From: a virus
Direction: 5' to 3' (one strand)
DNA: 23,114 nucleotides
IMG/VR virus record: IMGVR_UViG_3300010149_000187
Location: 1 to 23,114 of that record
Below the pieces are notes generated by a model. The model ran no database searches and was not told the origin of the DNA. It was given only the letters and a program-made list of their open reading frames with translations. A program made the translations under genes and the position numbers. The stretch's first letter is position 1, and the number at the start of each line of letters is the position of its first letter. Below are positions 1,574 through 13,946 of the stretch, in pieces.

Positions 1574-2967
1574 TTAAATCTCTTACCTCTATTTTCAATC
1601 GCATTACCAATCGGAGTAAATCCAAAGCGACCCTTAGGTGCTTTACCAACACTCCTACCAATTTTAGGTGGCGTAACTGTATTATATGTCTGGCTCAATC
1701 TGCCTTCTGCTACAAGTCTACCACCAATCGAGCGATTACCACTTGAGCGGAATGAAGAGCGTATCTCTTGTGTAGACGGACGCTTATCAAAGATGCCGTT
1801 ATAGTCATCAACAAATGTAATCTGATTTGCGAGGTCATCAGCAACCTTTACATTCTTAATCGAATATGTGCCAGCCATTGTATGACCCGCAACGATAGGA
1901 ATTGTGATAGGTGGACCTGATGGAGGAATCGGAACGGCTTTAGGAGTAACAGGAAAACCAAAGCCGCCAGCACCCAGAGACCCAGCGGTACCTGCTGTCA
2001 ATGCTGAGAATGCATTATTGGATAAGATTGCTTCGAGTGACTGACCCAGAAGATTACCATAGAAGGTAGCGCCTGAAGCGAATGGAACAGGACCAAGAGG
2101 ACCCATATATGCTTTACCAGTAAAGTCAACAAACTGTCCGCCAATCGCACCACTCGCTCCCATGACAGACACTTTTGCCGCACCTGTGATGTTTGTATTC
2201 GTAGCCGTTACAGCAAACTCTTTCTTACCCGTTACAAGAATAGCATTATCGCCATGAATACCGATATCACCTTCTGCTAGTTGCTCGTAGTCTTTCTTCG
2301 TAACAATTCTGTAGTCATCAAACTGCATGTCTGTTCTACGACCGACTGTGCGATTACTTCTGCTACCCGACACTTCGTTGATATCGTTACCAAGAATTCT
2401 TGTCTTGTTGTTCTGAACAATACGCTCTTTCTTATTACCACCTACATTGACATTGTAGTTACCTGCAACATCTACATTGTAGTCACCTTTGACAACGAGA
2501 TTGAGATTGCCATTGTAGACCATGTTGCCGTGACCTTCGACAATCAATGTCTGGTCACCACCTGTGACTTCTACTTTATTATTGACAGCGGAGATGATGA
2601 CAGAGCCATCTGCTCTCATCTCAACACCAGCACCTTTGCGATGCTTGATGAGAACACGTTCACCACCTGGCGTGTCATCATACTCAACGACATGACCAGA
2701 TGTTGTTTCTTGAACTTGATTGAATGGAAACTCAGATGCACGTTGTGGTTCAATGTTCAGCGATACGCCGACTTCACCACCACCGATATAGAGTTCGTTA
2801 ATCTTCGTGCCACGAGCCGCTTTATTAATTGACGAGCCGTAGTTATACTCACGCTTCGGAAACTCACCAGTCGGATCCTGCATACCATCAGCAGGAACAC
2901 CAATTGTTACCTCTTGCCCTTCACCTTGCTTGAGTCTGGCTTCTAAGTTATCTTTTTTCGTAGTCAT
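1570..2967 (-). CDS. gp5: Central spike/needle protein, gp5 C-terminal beta-helix type
   Basis: 465 residues. Residues about 104-200 show short repeats of the VxVxGxxx kind (LNLVVKGDYNVDVAGNYNVN) that build the triple-stranded beta-helix of T4 gp5C and VgrG needles. Residues 1-100 contain GEFPKREYNYGSSINKAARG and a beta-rich stretch. After residue 290 the chain is Gly/Pro-rich (VPIPPSGPPITIPIV) and ends in a basic tail (ENRGKRFK). It should form the membrane-puncturing needle under the hub. Unlike T4 gp5, it carries neither an OB-fold nor a lysozyme domain; these lie in the separate upstream gene at 4868-5743. The start overlaps the stop of the 2964-4868 gene. The beta-helix call is well supported; the function of the long tail is unknown. 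Confidence 0.82.
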   Translation of the reverse strand: MTTKKDNLEARLKQGEGQEVTIGVPADGMQDPTGEFPKREYNYGSSINKAARGTKINELYIGGGEVGVSLNIEPQRASEFPFNQVQETTSGHVVEYDDTPGGERVLIKHRKGAGVEMRADGSVIISAVNNKVEVTGGDQTLIVEGHGNMVYNGNLNLVVKGDYNVDVAGNYNVNVGGNKKERIVQNNKTRILGNDINEVSGSRSNRTVGRRTDMQFDDYRIVTKKDYEQLAEGDIGIHGDNAILVTGKKEFAVTATNTNITGAAKVSVMGASGAIGGQFVDFTGKAYMGPLGPVPFASGATFYGNLLGQSLEAILSNNAFSALTAGTAGSLGAGGFGFPVTPKAVPIPPSGPPITIPIVAGHTMAGTYSIKNVKVADDLANQITFVDDYNGIFDKRPSTQEIRSSFRSSGNRSIGGRLVAEGRLSQTYNTVTPPKIGRSVGKAPKGRFGFTPIGNAIENRGKRFK

Positions 2968-4868
2968 ACTATTTCACTCGATTTTAATGGCTCAGTATTC
3001 AGTGGGTCTGTTGTTACATTTTTCTTTCTAAAGACAGCTTCAACATAATCAGGAACATCAAAGTATGGGTCAAATTCAGAAATATCTAGGTCGTTGTGAC
3101 CAAAGACTTGACCACCAGGATACTTCTGATAATATATCGACAAGAACTTTTCAAGAGTTGTGAACTGCTCTCGTGTGAAAGATTGAGCAGAACGCAGTTC
3201 ACTAGGATTTTTTACACCCGATGATGCATTAATACCACCAACAAGAGCGACACCAAGTGACCTTGTGTTATGATTGTTCGTAGATGTATGTTCACCCACT
3301 TTATTCGGCGGACGTCCTCTCTGAAGTCTACCATCTCTTCTAATTATATAGTGATAGCCAATGCCATCGTGTCCAAGTTGATTGTGTATCTCATTGATTT
3401 CAACAGAACCGACATTCTTGTTTGTAAATGTATCTGTTGCATGAAGAACGACTTCAGTAATTTCACGACGAATTAATGTAAATTCGGTTTCAAGTTCCTC
3501 AACAGATGCGATATATGTAAACAAATCGCTTGATGTGTTTGCACCTGACCACTTCTCATTTAGTTTAGCAATCAGGTCTGGTTCATCAAAGAGTGGGTCA
3601 ACAACAACAGAACCTGAGATTGTTGAGTTGATAACATCAGTTAAGAGTGTATCACCAACACTATTATATCTGTCTGTTATCGTGGCAATTTCAGAATCAG
3701 GAATACCATTCTGTTTTAATACCTGTGATGTCTTATTGATTAACTCTTTAGTCGTCGAGCCTTCTACCTGAGAAGCAAGTTCAATCGCTCGAGGCGATAC
3801 AGAAACATTCGATAGTGAAACTTCTTGCACAGACTGTGTGAAGAGTCGTGTATTACCACTTACTACATTCTGTAATATAGTCTGCTTTTTCGCATCAGGG
3901 AAAATAGATATGCCACCTGTGAGAGAATTGAGAACTTGACTGGCTTCTCGTGTTACTGTTTCAAAAACATCACCAAGAAGACCTTTTCCTAGCAGACCCG
4001 ATGAGACACCTTCAAGAACATTTTCTTTTAAATTTTCTGCCTGAGAGACCAAGTTATTGATTGTTCCAGTAGCGTCTTTTACTGTGCTAACAATATCTTT
4101 TGCACCATCCAGTGCATCGAGAGAGTTCTTTGCGCTTGTTACACCTTCGCTCAATGCACCAATTGATGTTACATTACTCACAGTATCTTTGAGTCCTGCT
4201 ACACTGTTGATGCTATTTACAGAACTTACACCTTTGACGACATCTGTTATATTTCCAAAGTCAGCGACTTGACTTATTTTACTGACATCCGCGAGTTCGC
4301 CTACTGATGCGCCTAAATCTGTGAATGATGATGTCAGGTCACCTGCTAGACTTGAAGCACCTGCTTTAGCGGCGCTCATCACACCATCGATGCTAGGAAT
4401 GCCTCCACCTGATGTGAGTTTTGCACCCATATCAGAAATAGAACCCAGACCCGTTAGAAGAGAGACGATTGAAGCAACAGTGTCAGCTATTCCGCCACCT
4501 GAAATGCTTGTTGCAAAACCACCAGCGGCAGAATCATATGAGACAAAGCCACTATCATTTAGATTTGCGTTGATTGTTGCTGTTGAATATGGCATAGTGA
4601 TTGCTGTCGGATCTAATACACCTGAAAGATTAGGAACACCATCAGTAATCTCACAAAGACCTTCACCTAAGAGAACATCGTTTGGTGTCATCTGAACACC
4701 GTCTAGACTTTTGATACCAGCGTTGATAGCACCAGCTTTCTCACCAACGAGCGTTGCGGCTTTACCATATACTTCATCTTCAGCAATAGGAGCGAAGCCG
4801 AACTCTTTTTTTCTGTCGGCTGCAATGAGTCGAGTATTCAGTTCATCTTTTGTAAAAGTTCTTGCCAT
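2964..4868 (-). CDS. Tail-associated N-acetylmuramoyl-L-alanine amidase with long helical N-terminal region
   Basis: 634 residues. The last 165 align well with T7 lysozyme (Amidase_2): VVLHATDT matches the first zinc His (H476), GIGYHYIIRRDG matches GYHFIIKRDG (Y505), LGVALVGGIN matches the core strand, FGHNDLD gives the second zinc His (H591), and EFDPYFDV replaces KACPSFDL, with D600 in the place of the zinc Cys and E598 in the place of the catalytic Lys. It should cut the stem peptide from peptidoglycan during DNA entry. Residues 1-330 are low-complexity and rich in S, G, V, A and D with repeated short helices (DVVKGVSSVNSINSVAGL), so this part may be a coiled scaffold or hub arm. Both ends overlap neighbouring genes by a few bases. 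The amidase domain is firm; placement in the hub is inferred from the operon. Confidence 0.87.
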   Translation of the reverse strand: MARTFTKDELNTRLIAADRKKEFGFAPIAEDEVYGKAATLVGEKAGAINAGIKSLDGVQMTPNDVLLGEGLCEITDGVPNLSGVLDPTAITMPYSTATINANLNDSGFVSYDSAAGGFATSISGGGIADTVASIVSLLTGLGSISDMGAKLTSGGGIPSIDGVMSAAKAGASSLAGDLTSSFTDLGASVGELADVSKISQVADFGNITDVVKGVSSVNSINSVAGLKDTVSNVTSIGALSEGVTSAKNSLDALDGAKDIVSTVKDATGTINNLVSQAENLKENVLEGVSSGLLGKGLLGDVFETVTREASQVLNSLTGGISIFPDAKKQTILQNVVSGNTRLFTQSVQEVSLSNVSVSPRAIELASQVEGSTTKELINKTSQVLKQNGIPDSEIATITDRYNSVGDTLLTDVINSTISGSVVVDPLFDEPDLIAKLNEKWSGANTSSDLFTYIASVEELETEFTLIRREITEVVLHATDTFTNKNVGSVEINEIHNQLGHDGIGYHYIIRRDGRLQRGRPPNKVGEHTSTNNHNTRSLGVALVGGINASSGVKNPSELRSAQSFTREQFTTLEKFLSIYYQKYPGGQVFGHNDLDISEFDPYFDVPDYVEAVFRKKNVTTDPLNTEPLKSSEIV

Positions 4869-8973: not shown

Positions 8974-9450
8974 ATGGCATATTCGGGCAGATACACAGTA
9001 AAAAATCCAAAGAAGTATAAAGGTGACCATACAAACGTCACTTATCGCTCTCTTTGGGAAAAACACGCATTCAAGTGGTGCGACAACAACTCTGACATCA
9101 TTGAGTGGTCAAGCGAAGAGGTTGTCATACCATACTTATACGAGGTCGACAAAAGATATCATAGATATTTCATGGACTTGAAGATTAAGTTTCAAAATGG
9201 CAAGACTGTGCTTGTTGAGATAAAACCAGATAAAGAGACACGTCCACCCGAGGGCGCGAAGCGAACAAAGCGATATATCAACGAAGCATTCACTTATGTT
9301 AAGAACCAGAACAAATGGGAAGCGGCTCATGAATACGCACAGGATAGAGGTTGGGAATTCTGGATATGGACAGAAAAGAAAGAACCGTTGAAGTCTATTA
9401 TTCCCAAATCAACAAAACAGTTAAAACCGTTCAAGAGGCGTAAGAAATGA
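8974..9450 (+). CDS. gp4: Head completion nuclease gp4
   Basis: 158 residues, near T4 gp4 (150). SGRYTVKNPKKYKGDHTNVT, then YRSLWEKHAFKWCDNN and IIEWSSEEVVIPY are the conserved N-terminal block of gp4. The nuclease-like core follows: RYHRYFMDLKIKFQNGKTVL, then VEIKPDKE, a D...ExK arrangement as in PD-(D/E)xK-type folds. gp4 acts at head completion, trimming or sealing DNA ends before head-tail joining. It starts the plus-strand late operon and ends with a basic tail (KQLKPFKRRKK). Its TGA overlaps the next ATG (ATGA). Confidence 0.9.
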   Translation: MAYSGRYTVKNPKKYKGDHTNVTYRSLWEKHAFKWCDNNSDIIEWSSEEVVIPYLYEVDKRYHRYFMDLKIKFQNGKTVLVEIKPDKETRPPEGAKRTKRYINEAFTYVKNQNKWEAAHEYAQDRGWEFWIWTEKKEPLKSIIPKSTKQLKPFKRRKK

Positions 9451-10109
9451 GTGATTTTGATATATGGATGATAAGGGTCAAAGATAACGACAAGTCCGAG
9501 ACATATGCGAAATATTGTGCAAAGAGTTGGGCAGATGCTGGCTTTGAAGTAAACTTCTTTGATGCTGTGACTCCTGACACACTACATCTTGGTAAGCATT
9601 TAGACTTTGACAAGAAACACAAACCCGCAGAGAAGGGTTGTTTCATCAGTCAGTATCTTCTATGGAAGAAATGCTATGAAGAAGACCGACCTATTCTCGT
9701 TCTTGAGCATGATGCATATCTTGAAAATCCTGAGATGATTATCTACAATCCAGGTCTTGCAATGCAGTATCTAGGTCAGCATTGCATGGAAGCAGTTCTC
9801 TATAATCCATGGTGGGCAAAGGAGATGTGCAAACTTGCAGAAACTCTGTCAGACTTGAGAGGACCTTTCGGTATGGTAGAGCATTTTCTAGGCATTCCTG
9901 TCTCGGGTCATAGTCGATATGGTCTTCTATCTAGACATGGAGTTCCTCATACTCGCTTTCTAGGACCTAGGGCTCCTGTCAAGCATGTCATCATACCTGA
10001 ACTAGGAACATCACTAGAACACAGTAAAGGTAAGACTTCTGACAGAATTGTGACAGAGCAAGCAGATTTATTTAAAATAGTTCCATTAACAGTCGCTCTA
10101 AAAGCATAA
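9447..10109 (+). CDS. Glycosyltransferase-like protein (GT25/LPS type)
   Basis: 220 residues. WMIRVKDNDKSETYAKYCAK opens the fold, AEKGCFISQYLLWKKCYEED is the GT25-type acceptor-helix region, and PILVLEHDAYLENP (E87, D89) gives the acidic metal-site motif typical of LPS-biosynthesis glycosyltransferases. The later part (FGMVEHFLGIPVSGHSRYG) differs from standard GT25 members. It could glycosylate virion proteins or alter surface sugars; the substrate is unknown. It lies inside a structural operon between gp4 and a virion-completion gene, with its ATG overlapping the gp4 stop and the strong site AAGAGGCG upstream, so it is expressed late. A second protein with the matching FEHDVVF motif is at 22689-23114. 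Confidence 0.72.
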   Translation: MSDFDIWMIRVKDNDKSETYAKYCAKSWADAGFEVNFFDAVTPDTLHLGKHLDFDKKHKPAEKGCFISQYLLWKKCYEEDRPILVLEHDAYLENPEMIIYNPGLAMQYLGQHCMEAVLYNPWWAKEMCKLAETLSDLRGPFGMVEHFLGIPVSGHSRYGLLSRHGVPHTRFLGPRAPVKHVIIPELGTSLEHSKGKTSDRIVTEQADLFKIVPLTVALKA

Positions 10110-11433: not shown

Positions 11434-12138
11434 ATGGCATTACCAAAGTTAAATGAAAATTTAAAATATGAAATGACTGTCCCTTCGTCTGAAAGGGCAG
11501 TTACCTATAGACCTTATCTGGTCAAAGAAGAGAAAATTCTTTTACAAGCGTTTGAGTCACAAGACCAGAAACTTGCTATGAGAGCAATGGTCGACACGAT
11601 TGTGGCGTGTGTAAATGAACCGATTAGTTCAACTGACTTATCGACATTTGATGTTGAATATATGTTTACACAAATTCGTGCAAAGTCAGTAGGTGAAAAA
11701 TCACAACTAGAGTTCAAGTGTGAGAAGTGTGAAGAGATGACTCCAGTGTCAATTGACCTGACATCTATTCAGATTGAAAAAAGTGATGTGAGTAATATCA
11801 TTGAGGTTACTGATAACATTAACATCGAGATGAGATATCCAACATATGATAGTTTTGTCAAGAACTTTAAAGAAGGTATGAGCGAGTCCGAGTTTGGTTT
11901 TCTTATGCTCGAAGATTGTATTGTAGCAGTCATGACAGAAGACGAGCGATTTCTTGCATCTGATGTGAGCAACAAAGAATTGAATGACTTTATCAACTCA
12001 ATGACAAATGCTCAGTTTGAAAAAGTAGGAGAGTTCTTGAGAACTGTTCCTGTAATGAAAAAAGAAGTTGAGTTTACATGTGCGTCCTGTCAGCACGAAA
12101 ATACAATTACGCTAGAAGGACTCCAAGATTTTTTTTAG
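11434..12138 (+). CDS. gp26: T4 gp26-family baseplate hub assembly protein (tail-assembly-chaperone analogue)
   Basis: 234 residues matching the T4 baseplate protein gp26 family: LPKLNENLKYEMTVPSSERA, TYRPYLVKEEKILLQAFES and a helical N-terminal domain, then two CxxC pairs (C96/C99 in FKCEKCEEM, C216/C219 in FTCASCQHEN) that could bind one zinc. A good ribosome-binding site, GGAG, is 6 nt upstream of the ATG. The last codons are GAT TTT TTT followed by TAG, so the gene ends in a perfect U_UUU_UUU slippery heptamer. A -1 shift would add 62 residues (see 12135-12323). Its position, between a tube-type gene and the tape measure, mirrors the G-GT-H order of lambda-like phages, which suggests a chaperone for the tape measure. 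Confidence 0.85.
   Translation: MALPKLNENLKYEMTVPSSERAVTYRPYLVKEEKILLQAFESQDQKLAMRAMVDTIVACVNEPISSTDLSTFDVEYMFTQIRAKSVGEKSQLEFKCEKCEEMTPVSIDLTSIQIEKSDVSNIIEVTDNINIEMRYPTYDSFVKNFKEGMSESEFGFLMLEDCIVAVMTEDERFLASDVSNKELNDFINSMTNAQFEKVGEFLRTVPVMKKEVEFTCASCQHENTITLEGLQDFF
12129..12135 (+). other. Predicted -1 ribosomal frameshift site U_UUU_UUU
   Basis: Eight T residues (12129-12136) end gp26. In the gp26 frame they read T TTT TTT TAG, the canonical X_XXY_YYZ layout with the stop codon directly after the slippery heptamer. Slipping one base back puts the ribosome in the frame of the downstream extension (TTA GTA TGC). No obvious strong stimulatory hairpin is seen downstream; an internal Shine-Dalgarno stimulator upstream is also not clear. 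Confidence 0.72.
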
Positions 12139-12323
12139 TATGCCTCTCACATGATACATTGGTCAATCACTTTAAGACCAACTTCGCGTTGATGCAACAC
12201 TTTAATTATTCATTGTATGATATAGAGACAATGATGCCGTGGGAAAGAGAGATATACTTAGTATTATTACAAGAATATCTTAAAGAACGAGAAGAAGAAG
12301 CCAGAAGACAAGAAATGGGATAA
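12135..12323 (+). CDS. gp26 C-terminal extension reached by -1 frameshift (gp51/GT-like)
   Basis: After the slip, 62 further residues follow: LVCLSHDTLVNHFKTNFALM, then a helical region with MMPWEREIYLVLLQEYLKER and EEEARRQEMG, giving a 296-residue fusion. The frame is open upstream to 12078, but the ATG there has no ribosome-binding site, lies inside gp26 and would yield an out-of-frame, basic N-terminus unlike the rest. The conserved-looking sequence begins right at the slippery site. The MPWERE(I/L)Y pattern and length match the T domain of lambda-type GT chaperones, which recruits the tape measure (encoded 3 nt downstream). I recall similar segments in T4-like marine phages, sometimes annotated as a separate small hub protein (gp51 or similar), but cannot confirm that. 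Confidence 0.7.
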   Translation, partial: LVCLSHDTLVNHFKTNFALMQHFNYSLYDIETMMPWEREIYLVLLQEYLKEREEEARRQEMG

Positions 12324-12326
12324 CCA

Positions 12327-13946
12327 ATGGCCGAAGCAACAATAGGACATCTAATCGAAGAATTGAAAATGTCTACTCAGGCGCAGATAAACTTTGCGGG
12401 CGAAGATACACGGGAAGTTGTTAATTCTGTTAATAATCTAACCGATGTCTTCACTGATTACTTCAAGATATTGAAAGGTCAAGAAGGCGATAAACTCGAA
12501 AAAGAGCGTGAAGAGAAGAAGCCAAAGGCCGCTGCCGCAGAACTTCCTAACTTTGGTTCCATGGTTAAAGACGCAGGTGGTTTTGGCTTTCTTGGTATTG
12601 TCGGTGCTATTGGCGCGGCACTTGCTGGACTTGCTGTAGGCTTTCTTGATGGTATTCGTGATACTTTCAAACTCATTACACCTACATTCATAAAGAAATT
12701 ATTTAGAAGTAAAGTATTTCAACCAGTAATACGATTCTTCGATGCGTTTGGAGATATCTTCCGTAAAGCAGGAACCGGTCAAATACTGAAAGGTGACACT
12801 TTCAAGGTGTTTGGTAGATTTACTGCTACAATGCAGGATATTGCTACAGGGATTACTAAATTTCTTAAACCACTTGTAACAGCAAAAGATGCTGTGTTCA
12901 ATGGTTTTGCTAGAATGGGAAACTTCTTCTCTTCATTAAAGCGACAGTTCAAATTATTCTTTTTAGCCAGTGGTGTTATTCGTTCTCAGATTAACAATCT
13001 GAAAAGTATATTTTCTATATTTGGTTCAACCGCACAAACAGGCGGTAAGATTTTTCAAGGACTGTTCAGCGTAATTAAACCATTCTTTGGTATATTTGCA
13101 AGATTAGGTAAATTTCTTGGCGGTCCAATTACAGTTGCTATATTCGGTATCATTGATTCTTTCATGGGAGCATTTCAAGGCTTCAAAGAAGAAGGGTTTC
13201 TTGGCGGCATTCTTGGCGCAATTGGTGGTCTTGCTCGTGGTATTATCGGTATGCCTCTTGACTTGTTGAAAAGTGGTATAAGTTTCATTGCAGGCAAACT
13301 TGGATTTGAGAACTTCTCGAATATGCTTGACAGTTTCTCATTCAGTGATATGATTTTTGGTATGTTTATGAAAGTTGCGAACATAGGCAACGAAATCATC
13401 AGTAATCTGTTTGGTGGATTTGAAGATGGTTTTGGCGCTGGTATGAAACAGATGCTCAAAACATTGATGATTTATGTTAAGAGAATGTTGTTGTTTCCTG
13501 TTGCAATACTGGCTGGTGGTGTTGCGGCACTTGCGGCTGCATTGCCTGGCGGTAAGAGTCCGCTAGAAGCCTTCAAAGAAACGTTTAGTAAAGTTATTAC
13601 AGTGGGTGAAGGTTCTGCCCCTACAGCAGTACCTAGTGAACAGACATCTGGCGGCGGCGAAGAAGGTGAAGTGCCTCAGACGAAAAGAAAAAGAGTTAGT
13701 CCACTAGAGTTCAACAAAGCGAGAATTGAACGACTAGAAAGAATGTCACAAAAAGGTGACCTTTCTTCAAGACAAGCAGACGAACTTGAGAGAAGAAGAA
13801 AAGAAGTCGAGAGAATGGAAAAACAGCAGACTGGTGGTATGACTGCTGTGAATGCTCCTACAACAAACAACAATACTACGACCAACAACAATACAACCGC
13901 ATCAGGTTCTTCGTCAGCAACAGACCGCAAAGCACCCGAAGGATAA
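12327..13946 (+). CDS. Tape-measure-like tail length/baseplate hub protein (gp29-like)
   Basis: 539 residues, near T4 gp29 (590). The N-terminus is helical and charged. Residues about 85-110 form a hydrophobic Gly/Ala segment (GFLGIVGAIGAALAGLAVGF), and further hydrophobic helices follow near 240-300 (LGGILGAIGGLARGIIG) and 385-410 (FPVAILAGGVAALAAALPGG). This mix of membrane-like helices is usual for tape measures that also help DNA cross the inner membrane. The C-terminus has a charged coiled coil (LERMSQKGDLSSRQADELER) and an Asn/Thr-repeat tail (TTNNNTTTNNNTTASG). It sits 3 nt after the gp26 extension, the usual place for a tape measure after its chaperone. Sequence homology to gp29 is not visible; the call is from character and context. 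Confidence 0.78.
   Translation: MAEATIGHLIEELKMSTQAQINFAGEDTREVVNSVNNLTDVFTDYFKILKGQEGDKLEKEREEKKPKAAAAELPNFGSMVKDAGGFGFLGIVGAIGAALAGLAVGFLDGIRDTFKLITPTFIKKLFRSKVFQPVIRFFDAFGDIFRKAGTGQILKGDTFKVFGRFTATMQDIATGITKFLKPLVTAKDAVFNGFARMGNFFSSLKRQFKLFFLASGVIRSQINNLKSIFSIFGSTAQTGGKIFQGLFSVIKPFFGIFARLGKFLGGPITVAIFGIIDSFMGAFQGFKEEGFLGGILGAIGGLARGIIGMPLDLLKSGISFIAGKLGFENFSNMLDSFSFSDMIFGMFMKVANIGNEIISNLFGGFEDGFGAGMKQMLKTLMIYVKRMLLFPVAILAGGVAALAAALPGGKSPLEAFKETFSKVITVGEGSAPTAVPSEQTSGGGEEGEVPQTKRKRVSPLEFNKARIERLERMSQKGDLSSRQADELERRRKEVERMEKQQTGGMTAVNAPTTNNNTTTNNNTTASGSSSATDRKAPEG

Follow-up and report, generated by a model that had tools for sequence, protein, structure and literature searches.

Frameshifted TAC-N/TAC-NC chaperones are said to have been found in several T4-like phage groups by Vladimirov, Gautam and Davidson in 2022, with genes 26 and 51 being separate in T4. 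In phage lambda, gpGT is a minor -1 fusion of the short chaperone gpG, and its coding region precedes that of the tape measure protein (PMC5009743); a 2016 review described this G-T frameshifting as conserved in long-tailed phages except T4 (PMC5009743). According to the passages in which two later papers cite it, the study by Vladimirov, Gautam and Davidson (Virology 2022;566:9-15, doi 10.1016/j.virol.2021.11.003) identified the chaperone genes of T4-like phages (PMC10885494, PMC12846349); as cited there, it makes outdated the statement, in a sequence-only reading of the DNA analysed here, that such a frameshift is not usually described for the T4 group. In some T4-like phages two genes, a short one and a long fused one, take the place of frameshifting (PMC10885494), and poly-T slip signals are cited for T4-like TAC-N genes (PMC12846349). 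A review from 2010 describes T4 gp51 as an essential protein without known function (PMC3004832).

The window, i.e. the whole stretch of DNA analysed here, is a virus fragment from IMG/VR, 23,114 bases long. Around gp26 its + strand encodes head closure, glycosyltransferase-like, DNA end protector and tail tube proteins, gp26, and a tape-measure-like protein. The gene between those for head closure and DNA end protector (9447-10109) is glycosyltransferase family 25-like (Pfam, 3.2e-11). On the - strand, the baseplate region carries a 634-aa ORF (2964-4868) whose C-terminal part resembles, by reading, an N-acetylmuramoyl-L-alanine amidase domain. The features of the gp26 junction are the following.

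11434-12138, + strand: gp26, 234 aa, putative short chaperone of tail assembly (TAC-N, G-like) (PF12322, phrog_150, AlphaFold model, Foldseek)
12114-12120, + strand: Shine-Dalgarno-like AGAAGGA, proposed 5' stimulator, 8 nt upstream of the heptamer
12129-12135, + strand: slippery heptamer T TTT TTT (sequence; NNT TTT TTN conserved in non-redundant relatives)
12136-12138, + strand: gp26 stop codon TAG (sequence)
12135-12323, + strand: extension of 62 codons in the -1 frame, closed by TAA (gp51, proposed TAC-C, T-like) (phrog_634, phrog_150, phase, substitutions)
12159-12181, + strand: weak candidate hairpin, possible 3' stimulator, TTGGTC (12159-12164) with GACCAA (12176-12181)
12327-13946, + strand: tape-measure-like gene, 539 aa (phrog_3827, phrog_4200, matches of relatives)

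Very probably, this locus encodes a lambda G/GT-like chaperone pair produced via -1 ribosomal frameshifting. gp26 would be the short tail assembly chaperone, and a minority of ribosomes would slip by -1 at U UUU UUU just ahead of the gp26 stop, thereby appending a 62-residue helical domain and giving a long form, gp26-gp51, as the minor product in a fixed ratio. If the pair works like lambda G/GT, the part common to both forms may hold the protein of the tape-measure-like gene (12327-13946), and the extension may recruit tail tube or hub subunits. As in a lambda-type TAC pair, a slippery heptamer close to where the first frame ends connects it to a second, overlapping frame in -1 phase; this second frame is coding from the slip onwards without a conserved start codon, and the locus lies directly upstream of a tape-measure-like gene. 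The locus differs from gpG/gpGT by a U-run slip site placed where the short frame ends and by the annotation of its family as baseplate hub. The G/GT-like system proposed by the sequence-only reading is supported by the slip site, the phase, the point at which homology starts, the coding evolution of the extension, its in-frame fusion in T4 gp51 and the downstream tape-measure-like gene; the SD-like element and the excess of structure in the downstream RNA also favour it. A large marine sample hereby supports lambda-style chaperone logic in T4-like phages, and the slip site at the gp26 junction, which the SD-like element may stimulate, is one that can be measured.

The last codons of gp26 are GAT (12127-12129), TTT, TTT and TAG (12136-12138), with a run of 8 T at 12129-12136. 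The sequence confirms the T TTT TTT slippery site reported at the gp26 end, and also the 62-codon extension said to open after a -1 slip: the shifted frame continues with TTA GTA TGC CTC (LVCL) and stays open up to TAA at 12321-12323, so that the product of gp26 and extension would have 296 aa. A single T7 run is unremarkable, as 11 are present anywhere in the window versus 13.8 expected; judged from the aligned loci, it is the conservation and placement of the slip site, not the T7 run alone, that go beyond chance. Among 60 non-redundant representatives (below 80% identity), 58 carry NNT TTT TTN at the gp26 end and two lack the T6 site, compared with a background in the same loci of 12/77 D/S/N-Phe-TTN contexts and 21/355 of all X-Phe-TTN contexts; the alignment across T4-like phages that had been suggested as a check thus does reveal a conserved T-run. 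The variants found in relatives (GATTTTTTT, AGTTTTTTC, GATTTTTTC, AATTTTTTC and others) differ in the preceding codon, which therefore varies while the final T is retained. The run comprises 6 T in 34, 8 T in 21 and 7 T in three of the 58 representatives, and the zero-frame stop mostly follows 0-2 codons after the slip site. In Pelagibacter phage Mosig (L002) the site lies 8 codons ahead of the gp26 stop, not 0-2. The -1 phase of the extension is kept in 192/193 related loci with both parts, the sole exception (L057) having one additional T within the extension.

The extension matches the C-terminal half of phrog_634 (1.6e-24), a profile annotated as baseplate hub assembly catalyst (gp51), and, in addition, the C-terminus of the gp26 family phrog_150 (2e-6); by these matches it belongs to the family annotated gp51. 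Homology begins directly after the Phe-Phe, ahead of any conserved start codon. For codons 2-17, which precede the first conserved Met, 675/461/1481 substitutions were counted by codon position, and 1035 synonymous versus 519 nonsynonymous single changes, these being counts over pairs of related sequences in which events are not independent; both other frames contain stops. Right after the slip, the pattern of substitutions is that of a sequence translated in the -1 frame.

gp26 itself was assigned to Pfam PF12322 (T4_baseplate; 8.1e-58, 196 bits versus a curated cut-off of 24.5) and to phrog_150 (2.3e-59). Its AlphaFold model (pLDDT 87.7) strongly matches models of viral gp26, and the most probable match of Foldseek in the PDB was the HK97 tail assembly chaperone 2ob9 (2ob9_A), with a probability of 0.94, a TM-score by target of 0.52 and a weak E-value of 0.4; searched by sequence against the PDB, neither gp26 nor its profile gave a match. 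As had been noted from the sequence, the extension ends 3 nt before the tape-measure-like gene, the next ATG being at 12327. The protein encoded there (12327-13946) matches phrog_3827 (0.0034) and phrog_4200 (0.0064), its relatives match many tape-measure PHROG families (best 3.4e-13), and the complete downstream ORFs of relatives vary widely in length. The structure model of this tape-measure candidate is all-helical, at low confidence (pLDDT 52).

T4 (RB59), IME13 and SJ_PmiM have two separate and divergent genes for gp26 and gp51. The profile of the fused product (296) covers T4 gp26 only to the junction (10-237), whereas it crosses the junction in the gp51 of T4 (75-282) and of IME13 (67-288); PHROG 150 displays the same split (gp51 13-280, gp26 14-235 of 282), and both T4 proteins match PF12322. 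By these profile matches, T4 gp51 joins a complete gp26-like domain to the extension in a natural in-frame fusion, and T4 gp26 and T4 gp51 would be the homologues of the window's short and fused form, respectively. Where the window has overlapping frames with a slip site, T4 has a divergent gene pair without one; T4 gp26 retains the Phe-Phe, coded TTC TTT. In the tree, T4-type gp26 and gp51 cluster together, apart from the frameshift type (97/95), a topology that fits one duplication, although long branches and an arbitrary root call for caution. T4 gp51 hereby gains a specific testable role, that of the long chaperone form.

Upstream of the heptamer, by ~9 nt, lie codons for L-E-G, and many relatives carry GGAGGG at this place. 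The Glu is encoded by GAG in 36/39 cases versus 31% elsewhere in gp26 (p 2e-15), the Leu codon ends in G in 27/47 versus 28%, and the Gly codon is GGG in 13/56 versus 5%, p-values for these codons being overstated because representatives are treated as independent. Pairing with the anti-SD was best 11-12 nt before the heptamer, with a mean of -7.3 kcal/mol versus an average of -0.5, and a mean of -4.4 kcal/mol was obtained at the gp26 start codon. The spacing of the SD-like element is fixed relative to the slip site and not to any start codon; the window itself carries the weaker GAA form, AGAAGGA. The E. coli dnaX -1 frameshift likewise has a homopolymeric heptamer that is preceded, at roughly 9-10 nt, by an SD-like element; the gp26 junction differs from dnaX by a U-run instead of an A-run and by the lack of a 3' hairpin shared among all clades. 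Frameshifted T4-like chaperones being already known since 2022, the SD-like element is the part not found described: we found in the literature no description of a strong conserved element of this kind ~9 nt upstream of a T4-like chaperone slip site.

Downstream RNA is more structured than controls among relatives (mean z about -2 versus -0.5), the window giving z = -2.3 for 60 nt and -1.5 for a 70-nt stretch. Hairpins vary between clades, and no consensus RNA structure was found over 51 relatives. One cyanophage clade keeps a 12-pair downstream hairpin with 94% of cells paired; only one of its pairs changes on both sides, and that pair is broken in 13/41 sequences, so that its conservation is suggestive only. 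Both the SD-like element and the downstream structure may act as stimulators of slipping. To a broader proposal, namely that a conserved internal SD at dnaX-like spacing and clade-specific 3' hairpins together drive the chaperone frameshift of marine T4-like phages and that the T4 gp26/gp51 pair is a later duplication replacing the slip, we would give about an even chance; an anatomy of SD plus clade-specific hairpin was not found described in the literature for tail chaperone frameshifts.

Could the downstream frame instead be a separate gene, gp51, translated by reinitiation or from its own start codon? GenBank annotates it as such, often with a start ~50 nt past the gp26 stop. That the extension has no credible start, as the sequence-only reading held, is true in part: within the window the -1 frame has an ATG at 12078 inside gp26 (81-codon ORF) and a TTG at 12159, but among the aligned loci this ATG is found only in the window and in a 100% identical copy (L010). 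In several relatives (L001, L003, L059-L061, L063, L064, L078-L082) the -1 frame opens merely 7-10 nt before the gp26 stop, which makes an upstream start impossible there. The absence of starts expected in relatives holds for the window clade, which has no ATG near the gp26 stop, but not for some other groups, where an ATG overlaps this stop (ValKK3, Vibrio 1.081.O, Cr30, RHph_I9, phiM12, D482, K355); a separately started short protein is therefore possible in those T4-like groups outside the clade. Further evidence against a separate gene comes from the 16 codons before the conserved Met, which are kept as protein in the -1 frame, from an SD-like element whose distance is set by the slip site rather than by a start codon, and from T4 gp51, which is no short gene but includes the gp26-like domain. 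We thus consider a separate gene highly unlikely. In L091, L093, L094, L095, L096 and L100, a T-run slip site occurs alongside an ATG in the extension frame that overlaps the gp26 stop (TAATG/TGATG), so that frameshift and reinitiation could both operate in these loci.

Slippage of RNA polymerase rather than of the ribosome is conceivable as the source of the long form, since the 8 consecutive T of the window are long enough for it. A run of 6 T is short for polymerase slippage, however, and as 34/58 relatives have only 6, a long homopolymer is not common to all members; the phase of the heptamer (X XXY YYZ) and the conserved SD-like element 11-12 nt upstream indicate the ribosome, which leaves transcriptional slippage highly unlikely. 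Practically negligible is the probability that the gp26 stop is a sequencing or assembly indel splitting one long gene. Homopolymers are error-prone, and L057 indeed has an apparent 1-nt insertion, but the same arrangement is present in the isolate genomes P-SSM2, HTVC008M, Melnitz, Cr30 and ValKK3 as well as in independent contigs, where the site may be T7, T6C, T6A or T6G and its distance from the stop varies. This explanation is refuted by the isolate genomes.

Many cyanophage records probably place the start of gp51 wrongly. Starts are annotated up to ~75 nt past the gp26 stop in L001, L003, L004, L006, L008, L009 and other cyanophage and pelagiphage records, and in several of them the late start removes conserved coding sequence; in L005 and L007 the extension is left unannotated. 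When Vibrio, Caulobacter and Serratia phages served as queries, each scan yielded two loci only. In L098, L102 and L203-L207 (Ackermannviridae, Vibrio K355), the -1 phase at the gp26/extension junction is retained, with such sites as G GTT TTC, A ATT TTC or A CTT TTC in place of the T6 run and, in some of these loci, an ATG overlapping the gp26 stop. The G GTT TTC site resembles the T7 gene 10 site.
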